Source: Gemmatimonadota bacterium
Lineage (GTDB): Bacteria; Gemmatimonadota; Gemmatimonadetes; Gemmatimonadales; Gemmatimonadaceae
Assembly: GCA_020161135.1 (NCBI GenBank)
Contig: JAIUOB010000001.1
Location: 744,001-808,000 of the forward strand
DNA length: 64,000 nt
Direction: 5' to 3'
The translations under genes and the position numbers were made by a program. Every line of letters starts with the position of its first letter. The first letter of the stretch is position 1. Positions 43,685-54,852 of the stretch are shown one piece after another. The notes beneath the pieces were generated by a model. It did no database searches. It saw nothing but the letters and a program-made list of their open reading frames with translations, and was not told the origin of the DNA.

Positions 43685-43849
43685 CTGCTGAGCAAGAGGC
43701 TGTGGGCTATCTGACGCAAAGCTGTGCAGCGGCCGCTTTCATCAATGACGGTCAGGCGGCCGTGCGGAACCTTCAGGTACGATAAGACGCGGCCGTCCAA
43801 CCGCTACCCCAGCGCGGCCGTCTGCACCCACGGCCGTTGGCCTCTGGCG

Positions 43850-44810: not shown

Positions 44811-44940
44811 ACGCGTCCTCACGCGGAGGCTGAAGCCGCACGACGCGCTGCTCTGCGGCGGGACGCTCCAATGATGCGGCGGGCGCGCGCAGTGGGCCAT
44901 CAGCAGTCCTTGATTCCGTCCCGTCCGCAGCAGCGACGCG

Positions 44941-45582
44941 CTAGGTATCCCTGCGCGCGGCGGGTGCGGCCGCTTGCATCCGGTGCATCGAACGCGCACG
45001 CGGGCGCAGAGCCGTGAGCATGGCGGCGCGACGGGGCGGCATGGCACCGCGCTTCGCTGCTGATTCGGCATCCGGCAGCAGGGATTCCGTAAAGTCGGCC
45101 AGCGCCATCGCGGCGACCGATGTTGCGGTCAACACGAGGACCGTTCGTACGAGGAAGCCCAGCGTCAGTTCGTTCACCACGTCCGGCGCAGCCATCAGCC
45201 GGGCCGAAAACGCGTACGCCGAAGTCATCGCGACTCCCGTTGTGAGCGCGAGTTGCCAGCGTCGGCGCGTCTTCGCAGGTACCAGCGGCTGATGCCAACC
45301 GACGCTCGGCCATCGCAGGCGCTGCAGGATCGCGAGCGCGAGCCGCGCCACGCAGTACGGAGCGAACCCGAGGGAAGCAATGCTGGCACGATGCAGCCCG
45401 CCGCCGCTGAGCTGGTCGAACGCCCACCAGTCCGCACCCACTCCGCTTGCACGCAAGAAGCGCAGGAACGCGTAGAAGTCGATGCCGGGAAGGGCGACAT
45501 GCGTCATGAGCGCAAAGCTTGTCAGTCCAACACCGGCCAGCACGAGACGCCGCCACCATCGAGGCCCAGGCATGTTGTCCAA
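44941..45582 (-). CDS. SecY-like half protein (N-terminal helices only)
   Basis: 213 residues. The sequence follows the first half of SecY: helix 1 with LVLAGVGLTSFALMTHVALP, the HVALPGIDFYAFLRFL segment (VPGID-like), plug-region sequence FDQLSGGGLHRASI, helix 2 SLGFAPYCVARLALAIL (SecY: ALGIMPYITASIILQLL), a charged loop then RRRWQLALTTGVAMTSAY, and a helix like the fourth (FLVRTVLVLTATSVAAMALA, as in SecY LTLTAGTMFLMWLGE). The C-terminal half, including the lateral-gate helix 7, is missing. It is not in the ribosomal-protein context of secY. The plain reading is a truncated SecY paralogue of unknown role; I infer homology from motif order only. Confidence 0.6.
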   Translation of the reverse strand: MDNMPGPRWWRRLVLAGVGLTSFALMTHVALPGIDFYAFLRFLRASGVGADWWAFDQLSGGGLHRASIASLGFAPYCVARLALAILQRLRWPSVGWHQPLVPAKTRRRWQLALTTGVAMTSAYAFSARLMAAPDVVNELTLGFLVRTVLVLTATSVAAMALADFTESLLPDAESAAKRGAMPPRRAAMLTALRPRARSMHRMQAAAPAARRDT

Positions 45583-47840: not shown

Positions 47841-49619
47841 GCTGTAGGAAAAGCCCGCGCGGCTGATGTGGAAACGAAACCTGCTGGCCGGCGCAGCGTT
47901 GGCCTCAGAGAGAATGTGCAGTGTCCTCCGTCCCGCGTCGAGCGACTGCCATGGCCCGCTACAAGCCCATCGACACGCAGCCGAAGTTCCTGCCGATCGA
48001 CCTCGCCGCCCAGCTGCTCCCGGGCACGTTCGAGCACGCGCTGCACCACCTGCTCGAGCACGCCATCGATCTGACGCCGTTCGATGCGCGATATCGGAAT
48101 GACACCACCGGCGCCCCGGCGTACCCGCCGGCGATGCTGCTGCGCGTGGTGCTCTTCGCCTACGCCCGCGGCATCGTCAGCAGCCGGGCGATCGCCCGGG
48201 CCTGTGAGGACCACGTGACGTTCATCGCCCTGAGCGGCGACACCCGCCCGCACTTCACCACCATCGCCCAGTTCGTGTCCTCGCTGGGTGACCAGATCGC
48301 GCCGATCTTCGCCGCCGTGCTGGCGGTGTGTGACCATCAGGGGCTGATCGGGCGCGAGATGTTCGCTATCGACGGGGTGAAGCTCCCGAGCAATGCGTCC
48401 AAGCACCGTAGCGGCACGCGCGCCGACTTCGAGCGGCAGGCGGCCAAGATGGAGCGCGCGGCCAACGTGATGCTCGCTCGACATCGCGCGGAGGATGCCC
48501 GCGACGTCGAGCCGACGCTGGCCGCGAAGGACACGGCGCGACGGGAGCGGCTGCTGCGCGACGCGGCGGAGTTGCGGACCTGGCTCACGCAGCATCCCAA
48601 GGACCGGCGCGGCCCGACGGGCGCGATCCGCAAGAGCAATCGCACGGACAACGAGAGCGCCAAGATGGCGACCAGCAAGGGCGTCATCCAGGGATATACC
48701 GGTGTGGCCACGGTGGATGCGAAGCACCAGATCATCGTCGACGCGCAGGCGCACGGCGTGGGCGCGGAGCAGGAGCTGCTGCTGCCCGCGGTGGATGCGA
48801 CGTCCGCGCTGCGCCAGCCCGAGACGCTGATCACGGCGGACGCGGGGTATCACAGCGAGGCGAATCTGCGGGCGCTGGCGGACGCGGAGGTCTCCGCACT
48901 GATTGCCGACAAGGACATGCGCCGTCGCGATGCGCGCTTCGCCACGCAGGATCGGTACACCGCGTTGCCGCACGCACTGCACGACAAGTCGAAGCCCGCC
49001 CGGAAGCCACTCGCGGTGTTTGGGCCCGGCGACTTTCAGTACGATCCCGTGACGCGCACCTGCGTGTGTCCCGCCGGGAAGTCGCTCTATCGCCGTGGCG
49101 CGACACGCGTCACCCGCGATCATGTCGGCGCGCATTTCCGGGGCGCCAAGCGCGACTGCGGTCCGTGTGCGCTGCGCGCGCAGTGCTTGCGGTCGCCCGA
49201 CACGACGCCGACGCGCACCGTCGCGTTCTTCCACGGCCGGGTGAGCACGCGGGACGTCGATCACAGCGCGGCGATGCGGGACCGGATCGACACACCCGAG
49301 GGGCGCGTACGATACGCGCAGCGCTTCGCGGTGGTTGAGCCGGTGTTTGCGAACCTGCGCGCGAACAAGCGGCTCGATCGCTTCACGCTGCGCGGTCGCG
49401 CAAAGGTCGACACGCAATGGAAGCTCTACTGCCTGGTGCACAACATCGAGAAACTGGCCCACGCCGGCTACGCCGCGTAGGCGGGCACCGGTGCGGCAGA
49501 GCGGTCACGGTGCGCCACGAGGACCACTGTGCGTGATCTGCACGCCTCGGCCGGTGAAACCGGTCGCAGACCGCGTTGAAGCGCGCACCGACGCTCCCGA
49601 ATGGGCTTTTCCTACAGCT
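47841..49619 (+). mobile_element. IS1182-family insertion sequence
   Basis: Terminal inverted repeats GCTGTAGGAAAAGCCC (left, 47841) and GGGCTTTTCCTACAGC (right, ending 49619) match at all 16 positions. The element is about 1.78 kb with one transposase gene. The right end abuts the left arm of attC1 (TTCAACGTTTGCTTC), so the insertion truncated or lies at the edge of that site. No clear target duplication is seen; IS1182 elements often leave short or variable ones. Confidence 0.9.
47951..49480 (+). CDS. IS1182-family transposase
   Basis: 509 residues from the ATG at 47951 (MARYKPIDTQPKFLPIDLA). The N-terminal DUF772-like part reads AYPPAMLLRVVLFAYARGIV, the central DDE nuclease has FAIDGVKLPSNASKH, a second Asp in LITADAGYHSEANL, and the C-terminal RYAQRFAVVEPVFANLRAN (Glu). 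A Cys cluster (RTCVCPAGKSLY, CGPCALRAQCLR) is typical of the family. The frame is intact, so the element may still be active. Confidence 0.95.
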   Translation: MARYKPIDTQPKFLPIDLAAQLLPGTFEHALHHLLEHAIDLTPFDARYRNDTTGAPAYPPAMLLRVVLFAYARGIVSSRAIARACEDHVTFIALSGDTRPHFTTIAQFVSSLGDQIAPIFAAVLAVCDHQGLIGREMFAIDGVKLPSNASKHRSGTRADFERQAAKMERAANVMLARHRAEDARDVEPTLAAKDTARRERLLRDAAELRTWLTQHPKDRRGPTGAIRKSNRTDNESAKMATSKGVIQGYTGVATVDAKHQIIVDAQAHGVGAEQELLLPAVDATSALRQPETLITADAGYHSEANLRALADAEVSALIADKDMRRRDARFATQDRYTALPHALHDKSKPARKPLAVFGPGDFQYDPVTRTCVCPAGKSLYRRGATRVTRDHVGAHFRGAKRDCGPCALRAQCLRSPDTTPTRTVAFFHGRVSTRDVDHSAAMRDRIDTPEGRVRYAQRFAVVEPVFANLRANKRLDRFTLRGRAKVDTQWKLYCLVHNIEKLAHAGYAA

Positions 49620-49753
49620 TCAACGTTTGCTTCTGCTGCAGCCGCTTCCATAAAAAGCAGTTGTGGGGCGGCCGCAGACTGTCCCATACGATAACGCGGG
49701 CGCCCCACAACTGCATCCTTACCCGCGGCTGTCGGCAGCAAGCGTCGTTATGC
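49620..49753. repeat. attC1 (integron cassette recombination site)
   Basis: Imperfect palindrome: left arm AACGTTTGCTTCTGCTGCAG, right arm GGCAGCAAGCGTCGTTATGC. An inner stem GCAGTTGTGGGGCG (49657) pairs perfectly with CGCCCCACAACTGC (49701). The R' box is GTTATGC (49747-49753); the R'' box was probably damaged by the adjacent IS. The stop codon of the cassette gene to the right lies in the R' box. Confidence 0.8.
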
Positions 49754-50245
49754 GGCGCCCCCGGGTTGCGCGAGCACCTCTACGCGTAGTCCGCAACGTG
49801 CGCGGCGCGTGCGGGTTTCGGGACGCGCGCCCGAACGGACCTCCTCCTGGAGCATCCGCCGACGCGACTCGCTGAGTGCTGACCACGCGATGCGGGCCTG
49901 AGGGTCGCGCTGCACGAGCTCCGCCAGCTCACGCGGCATCTCTGTCGAAGCGCGCCGCATCGTCAGCGTCACGCGCTGACCGACATCGATGCCTACCCGC
50001 CGACAGCTGCGATCCGGCAGCTCCACGAACCAACGGCGCGCATCCCAACGTTTCAGCGTGCGCCGCCCGATGGTGTTGTCATCGAGCGCGACGTCGACCA
50101 CGATCGTTTCCGTCACGTGCCATCCGGCGAGCCGCGCAGTCGGGACCAAGAGGTACCGCGGAAGGTTCGGTTGTTTCCGTTGAACCACAACGGTCAGCGT
50201 GATCTGTCCGTGGGTACCGCGTGCGCCTCGTCCGGCTGGGCTCAT
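49748..50245 (-). CDS. YdeI/OmdA-like protein with DUF1905-type barrel (cassette gene 1)
   Basis: 165 residues, start at 50245, stop codon TAA formed by the R' box of attC1. An N-terminal beta barrel (GQITLTVVVQRKQPNLPRYL; VPTARLAGWHVTETIVVDVA; RRWFVELPDRSCRRVGIDVG) precedes a C-terminal YdeI-like motif (MPRELAELVQRDPQARIAWS, then ALSESRRRMLQEEVRSGARP). YdeI and DUF1905 proteins are of unclear role and are common as cassette genes. It is transcribed against the direction of the merR cassette. No promoter is recognised. Confidence 0.8.
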   Translation of the reverse strand: MSPAGRGARGTHGQITLTVVVQRKQPNLPRYLLVPTARLAGWHVTETIVVDVALDDNTIGRRTLKRWDARRWFVELPDRSCRRVGIDVGQRVTLTMRRASTEMPRELAELVQRDPQARIAWSALSESRRRMLQEEVRSGARPETRTRRARCGLRVEVLAQPGGAA

Positions 50246-50288
50246 CTGTTGCTTCCTCCACCGTGCCTGCTTGAACTGGGTCGCGTCC

Positions 50289-50428
50289 GCATAACGTGAG
50301 CTTCTACTGTGGACGCTTCAATAGAAAGCAGAGGTGGGGCGGCCGCTAGGCCGTCCCACGCTTCACAAGGCGTCCGCCCCACAACTGCTTTCCACATCCG
50401 CGTTCGTCGGCAGCAAGCGTCGTTATGC
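50289..50428. repeat. attC2 (integron cassette recombination site)
   Basis: R'' GCATAAC (50289-50295) and R' GTTATGC (50422-50428) are exact complements, with a left arm TGAGCTTCTACTGTGGACGC and right arm GCGTTCGTCGGCAGCAAGCG. An inner stem (AAAGCAG.GGTGGGGCGG / CCGCCCCAC..CTGCTTT) has the same sequence as in attC1. Length 140 bp. Confidence 0.88.
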
Positions 50429-50461
50429 GGCCCATTCGTTGCGCGCCGGTCCGGTTGCGAC

Positions 50462-50492
50462 TTGACTCTATACCAAGGTACAGGGTTAATCA
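50462..50492 (+). promoter_or_regulatory. MerR-type promoter with dyad operator
   Basis: -35 TTGACT (50462-50467) and -10 TAATCA (50487-50492) are 19 bp apart, the long spacing typical of MerR-activated promoters. The spacer holds the dyad CTATACC-aa-GGTACAG (one mismatch). The ATG of merR at 50499 follows the -10 by 6 nt, so the mRNA likely begins at the start codon. Confidence 0.75.
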
Positions 50493-50498
50493 TGGTGT

Positions 50499-50912
50499 AT
50501 GGAATCTCCACTACGCATCGGGGCGCTCGCGGCCGCGGCGGGTGTCGGCGTACAGACGCTGCGGTACTATGAGCGCCGAGGTCTGCTGAAGGCCAAAGGG
50601 CGGACCGCTAGCGGGTATCGCGAGTACGCCGCCGACGCGGTCCGTCGGGTGGTGTTCATTCGGCGCGCCCAGTCGATGGGTTTCACGCTCGACGAGATTC
50701 ACCACCTGCTTGCGTTGCGCGTACAGACAGCGCGCCGATGCGAACCCGTCAAGCGGTCCGCCGCCCAGGCTCAGGAGCGCGTCCGCGAACGACTGGTGGC
50801 GCTGCAACGGATGGACACGATTCTCGCGCGACTGATTCGCGGTTGTGATGCACGGCAAGTCACCGACGAGTGCCCCATACTCGAGGCGCTCGAACCTGAT
50901 GGGAGGATGTAG
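50499..50912 (+). CDS. merR: MerR-type metal-responsive regulator
   Basis: 137 residues. The winged-helix N-terminus (LRIGALAAAAGVGVQTLRYY, ERRGLLKAKGRTASGYREYA) and long dimerisation helix are complete. Three Cys sit where Hg(II)-binding MerR has them: RCEPVKRSAA, then RGCDARQVTDECPILEAL. This supports a thiophilic metal ligand, most likely Hg(II). It is transcribed in the same direction as the two genes it controls, and is followed two bases after its stop by the thioredoxin-like gene. Located in a three-gene attC cassette. Confidence 0.85.
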   Translation: MESPLRIGALAAAAGVGVQTLRYYERRGLLKAKGRTASGYREYAADAVRRVVFIRRAQSMGFTLDEIHHLLALRVQTARRCEPVKRSAAQAQERVRERLVALQRMDTILARLIRGCDARQVTDECPILEALEPDGRM

Positions 50913-50914
50913 AG

Positions 50915-51199
50915 ATGCGGATTGATTTCCTGTACTTCGAAGGGTGTCCGCACGCCGCGCCCGCGCGTCAGCGGCTTCAGGAGGCGCTGGCAACCGTAGG
51001 GGCTGCGCCGCACTGGAGCGAGTGGGATACGGGGAGTTCCTCAACCCCAGAGGCATTGCGTGGCTATGCCTCGCCGACGATTCTGGTGAACGGAGTGGAT
51101 GTGGAGCAGAAAGCCCGAACGAGCGGCGCGGGCTGTGCCGTCGGCGGCGGACCCAGCATGGACGCGCTGTGCGCGGCACTCGCGGCGGTGCGCCAATGA
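50915..51199 (+). CDS. Thioredoxin-fold protein of mer-like operon
   Basis: 94 residues starting at the GTG/ATG at 50915 (MRIDFLYFEGCPHAAPARQR). The first strand and helix with a single GCPHA Cys are thioredoxin-like, followed by YASPTILVNGVDVEQKART, which contains the cis-Pro-type SPT loop. A second Cys lies in GAGCAVGGGPS. Proteins of this type accompany merR in environmental mer-like operons, probably handling Hg or another thiophilic metal. It overlaps the following gene (ATGA). Confidence 0.7.
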   Translation: MRIDFLYFEGCPHAAPARQRLQEALATVGAAPHWSEWDTGSSSTPEALRGYASPTILVNGVDVEQKARTSGAGCAVGGGPSMDALCAALAAVRQ

Positions 51200-51585
51200 A
51201 GGCGGGGACGCGTGATGCGGCGGCGGTGGTCGGTGCTGTGCTCGCGGCGCTGTGTTGCGCCGGCACGCCAGTTATCATCGCCGGGTTGACGGCGCTTGGA
51301 CTTGGGTTCCTGCGGCGCGACGGAATCCTCTGGCCGGTGATGCTGTTGGCACTCGCCATCGCAGTCACGGGATTCTGGCAAGGCGCGCGTTCACACGGAC
51401 GCTGGGGACCGCTCGTCGTTGGGGGACTCGGCGCCGTCTCGCTGGCCAGCGGCGTGATTCTCGTACACGGATTCCCAGCCATGCAGATGATCTACGGCGG
51501 CGGTGTAGCGTTGCTCGCCGGGGCGGCTTGGAACGGTATCGCGCGACGGAACTGTGCGACCATGAACTCACGCGAGTCCGCATAA
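51196..51585 (+). CDS. MerT/MerC-like membrane metal transporter
   Basis: 129 residues from the ATG at 51196, overlapping the upstream stop. Four hydrophobic segments (VVGAVLAALCCAGTPVIIAG; WPVMLLALAIAVTGFWQGAR; GPLVVGGLGAVSLASGVILV; YGGGVALLAGAAWNGIARR). The vicinal Cys pair ALCCAGTP in helix 1 resembles the MerT/MerC metal-entry Cys. It probably brings Hg(II) across the membrane, but no mercuric reductase is present in the cassette. The TAA stop is inside the R'' box of attC3. Confidence 0.65.
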   Translation: MKAGTRDAAAVVGAVLAALCCAGTPVIIAGLTALGLGFLRRDGILWPVMLLALAIAVTGFWQGARSHGRWGPLVVGGLGAVSLASGVILVHGFPAMQMIYGGGVALLAGAAWNGIARRNCATMNSRESA

Positions 51586-51686
51586 CGCTGCGCTCTACGG
51601 CGGGGCATGACAACAATGCGGCAGGCGAGCGCAGCGAGCCAGCCGCGTACCGAACTCCGCCTCGTCCGTAGCAGCGATCGTTCTGC
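51580..51686. repeat. attC3 (integron cassette recombination site)
   Basis: R'' GCATAAC (51580-51586) complements the R' of attC2, and R' is GTTCTGC (51680-51686). Left arm AACGCTGCGCTCTACGGCG pairs with right arm CGTCCGTAGCAGCGATCGTT. Length 107 bp. The stop codon of the membrane protein gene to the left lies in R''; the stop of the gene to the right begins 2 bases after R'. Confidence 0.85.
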
Positions 51687-51688
51687 GC

Positions 51689-52525
51689 CTACGAGTCGGC
51701 GCTGCCGACGGTTCCGGTTCGGACGTACGTCACGGCGTGCTCGCGAAGCGGTCCAACAAGCCGCATTTCACGCGATACAAAGTCTAGTCGCGCAATGATG
51801 TTGTCGTTCCACTCCCCTAGCGCTTCGACTTGGGCGTCCTCGTCAGGAATGAGAATGTCCGCGATGTCCCAAAACCACTTGAGTGGCCAGTCTCGCGGAT
51901 CGACCGCGTCGGGCATACCATGAGGTACGCTGGAGAGCGCCAGGTACCGCCTGAATTCATCGCTTGCGTCTCCACGTAGTGTGGTCGCGAAAAGCTCCTC
52001 TATCTGATCGGGGGCGATTCCCATCTGCTCGCGGAACTGCACAGAGTTCGTGAGCATCCGATGCAGAAGTAGTGCGCAATAGGCCTGCGTCACCGAGGCG
52101 CACTTCTCTGCATCCGCAGTCGACATCTGTTGAAGCAAGGGAACAGGAAATGTCGCCGCCTCTTGATTCACCAGCATGTCATGGAACAGTACTTGGGGAG
52201 CGATGCAGAGCCAGAACTCCAACGGGCGTTGACTCTGTGTTCCGACACCTCTCCTAATCAGCGCTCGATCGACCTCGAGAACCCTTCCGATCGACTTACA
52301 CAGATCCTCAATCGCTGCACCGCTCGCAGGCCCATCTCGCGGCTGTGATTGAGCGGCGGCGTGCGCGGCGGAATCAGGTTCGGGAGACATTGCTCCTTCG
52401 CTTACAGCCTTGTCGAGCCAAGCTCTTGTCACCTCCACAAGAGCCGGACTTCCGTCTGATCGCGTGATCTGAATGTGCACTCGCTTGCCGAACAGCCGAT
52501 CCCACCAGCCGACGTATGGCTTCAT
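51689..52525 (-). CDS. Hypothetical protein, 278 aa (cassette gene)
   Basis: Starts at the ATG at 52523-52525, with AGGA upstream. The product begins MKPYVGWWDRLFGKRVHIQI, has a beta-hairpin-like N-terminus, a charged linker, then a long mostly helical region (LCKSIGRVLEVDRALIRRGV, EKCASVTQAYCALLLHRMLT, EELFATTLRGDASDEFRRYL). No transmembrane helix. I do not recognise the family. It fills its cassette completely and its codon use is less GC-biased than chromosomal genes, which fits a foreign origin. Confidence 0.7.
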   Translation of the reverse strand: MKPYVGWWDRLFGKRVHIQITRSDGSPALVEVTRAWLDKAVSEGAMSPEPDSAAHAAAQSQPRDGPASGAAIEDLCKSIGRVLEVDRALIRRGVGTQSQRPLEFWLCIAPQVLFHDMLVNQEAATFPVPLLQQMSTADAEKCASVTQAYCALLLHRMLTNSVQFREQMGIAPDQIEELFATTLRGDASDEFRRYLALSSVPHGMPDAVDPRDWPLKWFWDIADILIPDEDAQVEALGEWNDNIIARLDFVSREMRLVGPLREHAVTYVRTGTVGSADS

Positions 52526-52574
52526 TTCCTGTCTCCAGATGCGGGTGGATACGGCATGAATCTCTGTGAAGTGC

Positions 52575-52664
52575 GCAGAACGCTGGCTTCTGCAGCGGGC
52601 GCTCAAATCAAATGCGAGCGCAGCGAGCTACCGAGTCGCCCGACTGCAGCAAGCATCGTTAGGC
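52575..52664. repeat. attC4 (integron cassette recombination site)
   Basis: R'' GCAGAAC (52575-52581) complements the R' GTTCTGC of attC3; R' is GTTAGGC (52658-52664). Left arm CGCTGGCTTCTGCAGCGGGC pairs with CGCCCGACTGCAGCAAGCAT. Length 90 bp. The antitoxin stop codon lies in R'. Confidence 0.9.
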
Positions 52665-52952
52665 TTTGCGCGGGACAGGCGTCATATGGAGCTCGACTCC
52701 TAAGGCGCGGATCAACTTCAGGACCGTGTCGTACCGCGGCTTCGCGCCCGGCGCCAGCGCTTTGTAGAGGCTCTCGCGTCCTAGACCCGTGTCCTTCGCC
52801 AGCTGTGCCATCCCTCGCGCCTTCGCCACATCCGCGATAGCCTGGAGGAAGAGATCGGGATGTTCGCTTGCTAGCGCCACGTTCAAATACTCGGCGATGA
52901 CCTCCTCGCTATCGAGGTAGTCTGCCGCATCGAATACCACAGGCTTCTTCAT
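52659..52952 (-). CDS. Antitoxin of HI1420/HigA-like addiction module
   Basis: 97 residues. An N-terminal helix-turn-helix-like region (YLDSEEVIAEYLNVALASEH; LFLQAIADVAKARGMAQLAK; DTGLGRESLYKALAPGAKPR) is followed by the family C-terminus YDTVLKLIRALGVELHMTPV. It binds the toxin and, with it, represses its own promoter. Start at 52952 overlaps the toxin stop (ATGA). Second gene of the pair. Confidence 0.88.
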   Translation of the reverse strand: MKKPVVFDAADYLDSEEVIAEYLNVALASEHPDLFLQAIADVAKARGMAQLAKDTGLGRESLYKALAPGAKPRYDTVLKLIRALGVELHMTPVPRKA

Positions 52953-53251
52953 CGATCGGTCTCCAACTGGGTGCGCAGTGCTTTGGCCTTCTGAATGTCA
53001 CGACGTTGCGTGGACTTGTCGCCGCCGCACAGCAACCAGTACGTCACGCTGCCTTGCCGCCAGTAATACACTCGATAGCCAGGACCCGTATGAATCCGAA
53101 GCTCGAACACCGCATCGCCCACGCTCGCATGATCACCGAAGTGGTCGAGCTCGGCTGCACGAAGCCGAGCAAGGATACGCGCCTTCCCAATCGGATCGCG
53201 GAGGGCCTTCAACCACGCATCAAACTCAGCGGTCCGAAGAAAAACGCTCAT
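52949..53251 (-). CDS. RelE/ParE-like toxin of HI1419 type
   Basis: 100 residues. The toxin fold is recognisable by FDAWLKALRDPIGKARILAR, LRAAELDHFGDHASVGDAVF, the basic strand ELRIHTGPGYRVYYWRQGSV, and the C-terminal LLCGGDKSTQRRDIQKAKAL. These toxins cut mRNA on the ribosome. In integrons, such cassettes are held to stabilise arrays. It precedes the antitoxin, the usual order for this subtype. The start codon lies 5 nt after a -10 element. Confidence 0.88.
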   Translation of the reverse strand: MSVFLRTAEFDAWLKALRDPIGKARILARLRAAELDHFGDHASVGDAVFELRIHTGPGYRVYYWRQGSVTYWLLCGGDKSTQRRDIQKAKALRTQLETDR

Positions 53252-53256
53252 TTTTG

Positions 53257-53285
53257 AATGTATCCGTTCGGATACGACAAATCAA
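53257..53285 (-). promoter_or_regulatory. Toxin-antitoxin promoter with perfect palindrome
   Basis: On the minus strand TTGATT (53285-53280) and TACATT (53262-53257) are 17 bp apart. The spacer and -10 hold the perfect 16-bp palindrome GTATCCG-tt-CGGATAC (53260-53275). The toxin ATG lies 5 nt after the -10, so the transcript is probably leaderless and self-repressed by the antitoxin complex. Confidence 0.7.
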
Positions 53286-53304
53286 GGACGACCTGCCTTC
53301 GCCA

Positions 53305-53396
53305 GCCTAACGCTGGCTTCTGTTGCGAGCGGACCGCACGATCGTTCACCCTGCGCGGATGGTCGGTCCGCTCGGCAACAGCAAGCATCGTTAGGC
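53305..53396. repeat. attC5 (integron cassette recombination site)
   Basis: R'' GCCTAAC (53305-53311) complements the R' GTTAGGC of attC4; R' is also GTTAGGC (53390-53396). Left arm CGCTGGCTTCTGTTGCGAGC pairs with GCTCGGCAACAGCAAGCATC, with an inner stem GAGCGGACCG / CGGTCCGCTC. Length 92 bp. It is the last recognisable complete site. Confidence 0.9.
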
Positions 53397-53502: not shown

Positions 53503-54852
53503 ATGCCCGACGCGGCCGCGGTGGCGCGCGGCGTCTACAAGCCCCGACGTCCCCAGGCGTCGCCGCTCTTTCGCTTGGTATCGGACCATCTGCATCGCCT
53601 GCAGACGGTCTACGACGACCGCTTCGCACGCGAGTACGGCCCGTGGCGCCCCGTGGTCGCGCAGGTTGCCGACAAGTTCCTCGCCTGCGGCGTGTTGGAG
53701 CACGGCTTCGCCCGCATCCGCTGCGACGACTGTGCACACGAATACCTGCTCGCGTTCTCCTGCAAGTGCCGCTACTTCTGTCCGAGCTGCCACGCCAAGC
53801 GCCTCGCGATCTGGACGCAGTGGCTGGACACGACACTGCTCGCGCCGGTGCCGCACCGCCAAGTGGTGCTCACCATCCCCAAGCGGCTCCGCGCCTACTG
53901 TCTGTACCGGCGTCGCCTGCTCGGCGAGATCGCCCGCGTCGCTGCCCGCACCGTGACCGCCGCCATTCGCACACTGACCGGCGAGCGCGACCTCGCCGTG
54001 GGGATCGTCGCGTGCCTGCAGACGCACGGCTCCCGGGCGAACTGGCATCCGCACCTGCACCTGCTCGTCACCGACGGCGGGTTCCGGCCAGACGGGACCT
54101 TTGTGTCGTGGCCCGCCCACGACACGGCGCGCTTGACTGAGGCGTTCCGCCGCGCCGTCCTCCGGCTCTTCGTGCGCCTCGAGCTGTTTGATGAGGAGCA
54201 GGCCGCCGGCATGCTCACCTGGCCGCACTCGGGGTTCCATGTCCACACCGCCGTGTGGGTGCCCGAGGACGATCGCGCGTTCGCCACCCGACTCGCCCGG
54301 TACTGTGCGCGGAATCCGGTCGCGCTGGAGCGCTTGACGTACGACCGAGCCGCGAAGGCGGTGACGTACCGGTCGGACAAGTCCGACGGACCCACGGCGG
54401 GCACCGAGACCGTGGACCCGCTGGAGTTCCTGGCCCGGGTGCTGGTGCACATCCCCGACAAGGGCCAGGTCACCACGCGGTACTATGGCTGGTATGCCAA
54501 CCGTCCGCGGGGCATGCGCCACAAGGCGGCGCCGACCGGCGCCGACGGGCCGCCGACGATCGTCCCCGCACGACCGCTGGCCCCGACCGAGGCGTCCCGC
54601 CGGTGGGCGACCCTGCTGCAGCAGATCTTCGAGGTCGACCCGCTCGTGTGTCCCAGCTGCCACGGTGCCATGCGCATCGTCGCCTGCATCACCCAGACGT
54701 CGGTGATCGACCAGATCCTCACCCACCTCCGGACCCGCGCCTCCCGTGAGGCGCACGCCGGGCCGCGGAGCCCCCCATCGACGCGGGCCCCCGCGAGCCG
54801 AGGGGCGTCACGCGCCCCACGCCCGTTCGCCGACGCGCCGCCGGTCCCCTGA
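53503..54852 (+). CDS. IS91-family HUH transposase
   Basis: 449 residues. An N-terminal zinc-binding region (IRCDDCAHEYLLAFSCKCRY, FCPSCHAKR) is followed by the HUH nuclease motif HPHLHLLVTDG and the tyrosine motif RYYGWYANRPRG, then a C-terminal region with DPLVCPSCHGAMRIVACI. All catalytic residues are present. The YYGWY motif has Tyr four residues apart, as in two-Tyr IS91 enzymes. The frame is complete, so it may be active. Confidence 0.92.
   Translation: MPDAAAVARGVYKPRRPQASPLFRLVSDHLHRLQTVYDDRFAREYGPWRPVVAQVADKFLACGVLEHGFARIRCDDCAHEYLLAFSCKCRYFCPSCHAKRLAIWTQWLDTTLLAPVPHRQVVLTIPKRLRAYCLYRRRLLGEIARVAARTVTAAIRTLTGERDLAVGIVACLQTHGSRANWHPHLHLLVTDGGFRPDGTFVSWPAHDTARLTEAFRRAVLRLFVRLELFDEEQAAGMLTWPHSGFHVHTAVWVPEDDRAFATRLARYCARNPVALERLTYDRAAKAVTYRSDKSDGPTAGTETVDPLEFLARVLVHIPDKGQVTTRYYGWYANRPRGMRHKAAPTGADGPPTIVPARPLAPTEASRRWATLLQQIFEVDPLVCPSCHGAMRIVACITQTSVIDQILTHLRTRASREAHAGPRSPPSTRAPASRGASRAPRPFADAPPVP

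Follow-up and report, generated by a model that had tools for sequence, protein, structure and literature searches.

An inverted merR-DF-merC operon carried as a mobile integron cassette in a Gemmatimonadota bacterium

The window, a stretch of 64,000 nucleotides from the genome of a Gemmatimonadota bacterium (G000), contains an array of integron cassettes. One of these, here called the mer cassette (50295..51585, 1291 bp, canonical attC direction on the minus strand), consists of a recombination site, attC2, and an operon of three plus-strand genes: merR (50499..50912, 137 amino acids), a gene for a DF-family protein of predicted thioredoxin-like fold (50915..51199, 94 amino acids) and a merC-type membrane protein gene (51196..51585). 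The genes are packed as closely as the original prediction had described: a 2-bp gap separates the merR stop from the DF gene, and the DF gene and merC share the stop/start sequence ATGA. The cassette ends with the stop codon of merC.

The best model for the regulator is that of Hg(II) MerR (TIGR02051, 125.7 bits, versus 99.6 to 107.9 for ZntR, 94.5 for CueR and 91.6 for CadR). The score lies below the TIGR02051 equivalog cut-off of 150.85, so we name the protein MerR-type, not a proven mercury MerR. The three cysteines previously pointed out as those of Hg(II) sensors, C81, C116 and C125, align with the cysteines of Tn501 MerR (5crl) and Bacillus MerR (4ua1), and all 15 MerRs of an alignment have the triad. 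Its last two cysteines enclose an 8-residue loop that, like the CPI ending, fits Hg-type MerR and not CadR. In a MerR tree whose deep branches are weak (38/80), the cassette MerRs form one clade (99/99), the MerR closest to them belongs to a MerR-DF-MerT operon in G145 (96/92), and clustering with non-mercury members was not seen.

Upstream of merR lies a MerR-type operator/promoter (50462..50492, plus strand) with a -35 element TTGACT, a 19-bp spacer and a -10 element TAATCA. The spacer holds the dyad ACTCTATACC-AA-GGTACAGGGT, whose arms match at 8 of 10 positions, the best among 41 TTGAC sites in the window. The operon had been credited with a promoter of its own on these elements, and they are kept in all five complete copies of the cassette. 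The operator half-sites are nearly invariant between copies; the DNA between attC and operator varies. merR starts about 7 nt past the -10 element, and its mRNA is likely leaderless. Similar operators are found in chromosomal mer operons: they precede the MerR-DF-MerT genes of G133, G145, G170 and G046, and another (TTGACCCTATACCAAGGTATAGGGT) precedes MerR-MerC-MerA in G063, whose MerA scores 563.9 bits.

The middle gene had been read as encoding a thioredoxin fold, and it matches a single NCBIfam family, NF049942 (DF family (seleno)protein), with 50.2 bits against a cut-off of 70; all 16 aligned members have this match in common. Residues C11, P12, S53, P54 and C74 are invariant among the 16, which makes a two-thiol site plausible. 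The AlphaFold2 model (pLDDT 89.5) has thioredoxin and glutaredoxin folds among its nearest structures in Foldseek with weak E-values (best 0.06), so we limit the claim to fold class, a predicted thioredoxin- or glutaredoxin-like fold. Comparison with PDB sequences gave no credible relative. A scan of genome contigs with DF alone returned one Spirochaetaceae locus, and on plasmids only distant DF relatives were found, in Rhodococcus. DF adjoins MerT in G133, G145 and G170, and more weakly in G046; in G200, merR is followed by one 260-aa frame that holds both DF and MerC domains (L122:405-1184, minus strand). Behind MerR-DF-MerT in G133 there is a MerP-like frame (L034:6372-6797, minus strand) in which an in-frame TGA takes the place of the first Cys in GMTCxxC (GMT-TGA-TSC), which makes it a candidate selenocysteine MerP.

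The membrane gene, earlier called MerT/MerC-like, is MerC by Pfam (PF03203, 64.8 bits, gathering cut-off 27.6), and no sign of an unrelated family was seen. The NCBIfam MerC equivalogs score below their cut-offs (NF010318, 27.2 versus 170; NF033784, 23 versus 140). The alignment places a CysCys pair at 20-21 in the first helix and a further Cys at the C-terminus, and the structure model is mainly helical (pLDDT 73.7). Plasmids hold only distant MerC relatives, mostly in Agrobacterium. Close relatives of MerC follow small GDCCVxC-type proteins at five loci (L108-L110, L112 and L115), and ArsR or arsenite-methyltransferase-like genes lie near some such loci. Some GDCCVxC-MerC loci are without recognised mer context, so MerC alone is no proof of mercury.

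attC sites were located with a covariance model built from related attCs, whose E-values are rough. It finds five sites in the main array, attC1 to attC5, at 49617-49753, 50289-50428, 51580-51686, 52575-52664 and 53305-53396. attC2 (minus strand) matches with 126 bits (E 5e-32) and is itself a member of the training set; attC3 (minus strand), which is absent from the training set, matches with 53.6 bits (E 6e-12). Folded as single bottom-strand DNA, attC2 has a z of -4.8; attC3 folds more weakly (z -1.5, equalled in 15 of 200 shuffles). An Rfam scan of the whole window gave no match, and an attC search by strict stem rules overlooked genuine sites. The covariance model found no attC in the non-cassette MerR-DF or MerC loci searched.

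Which of the two flanking sites belongs to the mer cassette was decided by duplicated cassettes, in which the left attC moves with the body and the right attC does not. One pair has identical bodies, with left attCs 99% alike and right attCs 57.5% alike; in the mer copies L028 and L029 the bodies are 99.7% alike, the left attCs 98.8% (over 82 available bases) and the right attCs 78%. In the G001 copy the only attC is the one on the left. With the left site shown to travel with the body, the attC direction must be the minus strand, and the mer cassette is 50295-51585. Its own site is therefore attC2, upstream of merR; attC3, behind merC, is owned by the neighbouring cassette and marks the other boundary. 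Assignment of attC3 to the mer cassette from its L-box pattern was refuted by the duplicated cassettes and the L028/L029 pair. Both ends of the unit have the cut site GCATAA|CG, and the R-box ends match each other (TTATGC at the start, GCATAA at the end). Homology between copies in four genomes sets in near CGTTATGC and stops at GCATAACG. The mer cassette is thus a genuine mobile integron cassette, flanked by two real attCs and found at other positions with sharp boundaries. The description of a three-gene, self-regulated operon carried between attC2 and attC3 as one cassette holds for the genes, the two sites and the MerR-type promoter; the unit itself had to be redrawn as attC2 plus the operon. 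A fusion of two cassettes through loss of an attC seems unlikely, because non-cassette MerR-DF-MerT operons show the same order of regulator, DF and transporter. The best reading is that merR-DF-merC derives by capture from an operon of the MerR-DF-MerT/C kind.

The operon is inverted relative to its own attC2. The neighbouring cassettes all have the normal orientation on the minus strand: cassette A (49617..50294) is attC1 with a YdeI/OmdA-domain gene (49748-50245), cassette C (51586..52580) is attC3 with a gene without Pfam match (51689 to about 52530), and cassette D (52581..53310) is attC4 with two small genes (52659-53251) that, judged by eye without a profile search, look like a toxin-antitoxin pair. 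In the five arrays that we read, all four mer cassettes are inverted, and the main frame runs in the normal direction in 27 of the 29 other coding cassettes. The integron integrase lies about 1.1 kb past the right end of the window (TIGR02249, 386.5 bits, cut-off 265), on the minus strand like the other cassette genes. A promoter at the integrase end could not read the inverted operon, which fits its having a promoter of its own; the cassette has to bring one because the operon reads against the array direction. Two more attC-like sites, at 43709-43842 and 44838-44941, lie to the left of the main array at a distance of 5 to 6 kb and make it longer than first described. Transposase-like genes are found at 47921-49480 and 53503-54852. 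In G096 an array of 22 attC sites (L027) includes several short cassettes (about 180-240 bp) that show no clear gene, and duplicates occur among them.

A search of the whole family (179 genomes) found six copies of the mer cassette in five related genomes: G000, G001, G096 (two copies), G021 and G022. Five are complete, in four genomes; the G022 copy is cut by a contig end and is followed by an attC. Where synonymous change between a pair could be measured, dN/dS is 0.10-0.22 for merR, 0.15-0.19 for DF and 0.07-0.16 for merC, and all three genes are under purifying selection. The operon inversion relative to attC, the copies elsewhere and the placing of the middle gene in the DF (seleno)protein family are new with respect to the original prediction. 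The G001 copy (L026:6775-8070) is solitary, with one attC in a 12.6-kb contig, and lies downstream of a gene resembling a CusA-type RND pump. It is possibly an insertion outside an integron array; the search for an empty insertion site gave a near relative only for the region from about 150 bp past the junction. Between the window and this copy dS is 0.05 for merR, 0.11 for merC and 0.31 for DF, and the attCs are only 76% alike. With DF far more diverged than merR and merC, the two copies appear to have a mosaic history.

We checked for MerA in four of the carriers: G000 (93.6% complete), G021 (99%, single contig), G096 (96%, 3 contigs) and G001. G000, G021 and G096 have no MerA over the family cut-off and only lipoamide-dehydrogenase-like matches; the C-terminal CysCys of MerA is missing in the best G000 match and in the G021 and G096 matches that were read. 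The mercuric reductase noted as lacking beside the operon is therefore not found elsewhere in its own genome either, and MerP, likewise noted as lacking, is represented there by sub-threshold heavy-metal-associated domains only. MerT was found in none of G000, G021 and G096. MerB was found in none of the cassette carriers searched and, more widely, in only one (G175) of 14 genomes tested; genomes with MerB and without MerA have been discussed in a survey of mer genes (PMC8261052). G001 has, besides the cassette, a full mer operon with a MerA ending in SCCA, MerT, MerP-like and MerE-like proteins and a MerC 56% identical to that of the cassette. Most other genomes with a DF gene are also without MerA over cut-off. 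The mer cassette is thus kept mostly without MerA.

We think it probable, with moderate confidence, that the mer cassette is a mobile, self-regulated merR-DF-merC operon whose role, induced by Hg(II), is uptake with thiol relay or sequestration. From homology and context we infer three parts of this reading: that the metal is Hg(II), that it is transported inward and that DF accepts it from MerC. Without metal, MerR would keep RNA polymerase at the promoter with its over-long 19-bp spacer; Hg(II) bound to C81, C116 and C125 would switch the promoter on, and the operon would thus be self-inducing. The CysCys pair of MerC would take Hg(II) at the inner membrane, and cytosolic DF would receive it through C11 and C74 and either hand it to cellular thiols or keep hold of it. 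The most likely benefit to the cell would be sequestration or relay by DF and cellular thiols. Against this reading, MerR, DF and MerC all score below the stricter NCBIfam cut-offs, and the deep MerR branches are weak. In mer systems, uptake without MerA also tends to raise the sensitivity of the cell, so DF or host thiols would be needed to compensate. In a stronger form, which we put forward only tentatively, DF would be a Hg-accepting thioredoxin-fold partner of MerC or MerT that replaces MerA, and the cassette would amount to a full Hg(II) resistance, self-inducing and independent of MerA, that integrons spread.

The cassette could instead be an accessory uptake set, useful only where the host or another mobile element provides a MerA. 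G001, with its second MerC and its complete mer operon, speaks for this; however, G000, G021 and G096 keep the genes under purifying selection without a MerA over cut-off, most other DF-gene genomes lack one too, and we consider the idea unlikely. A true substrate other than Hg(II), whether another thiophilic metal, a metalloid or an organomercurial, we consider quite unlikely. Presumably the half-sites ACTCTATA/TACAGGGT also resemble CadR and PbrR operators, and the arsenic-related genes that adjoin some MerC relatives point the same way; the Cys loop and CPI ending of MerR are nevertheless of the Hg type, the same operator precedes MerR-MerC-MerA, and the carriers searched are without MerB. 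That MerC and DF export the metal rather than import it, leaving MerA unneeded, would account for the missing MerA in three carriers and is very improbable, since we know of no exporter in the MerC family and Pfam and NCBIfam show no energy-coupling domain in the three genes.

For the most part, the cassette combines known parts in a new arrangement. With mer operons of the Tn21/Tn501 type it shares a MerR with three ligand cysteines, a 19-bp-spacer dyad promoter and a CysCys membrane transporter; it differs in having no MerA, MerT or MerP, in its leading merR being co-transcribed with the other genes, in the added DF-family gene and in travelling as an integron cassette. The MerR-DF-MerT operons have the same types of regulator and operator and DF beside merR, but MerT replaces MerC and the stretches searched hold no attC. 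A MerR/MerT/MerP/GDCCVxC module on pPUV-6 of Pseudomonas aeruginosa (L137) is also mobile and MerR-controlled, includes a small Cys protein and lacks an annotated merA in the 3.4 kb viewed; unlike the cassette, it adjoins a Tn3-family transposase, has a divergent merR and carries MerT and MerP rather than MerC and DF. The usual description of an integron cassette is a single gene without a promoter. Reviews (PMC8618304, PMC8876359) report cassettes that have two ORFs or a promoter of their own, such as toxin-antitoxin and cmlA cassettes. These resemble the mer cassette in carrying either a further gene or a promoter; the mer cassette differs in its three genes, its metal-sensing regulator and a whole operon that runs against the attC direction. 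A metagenome survey found metal-resistance genes almost absent from cassettes (PMC7370490), and papers under open licences yielded no account of a mer-type operon carried in a cassette.

A metal-sensing operon of three genes that travels as a single cassette, and is maintained counter to the direction of the array, means that integrons are able to disseminate regulated resistance circuits. For the DF (seleno)protein family, a testable role follows from the DF-MerC fusion together with the MerR-DF-MerT operons. The carriers without MerA raise the question of what MerR-controlled Hg transporters do in cells unable to reduce Hg(II), and the cassette may reveal a way of handling mercury that is independent of the mercury-reducing enzyme.
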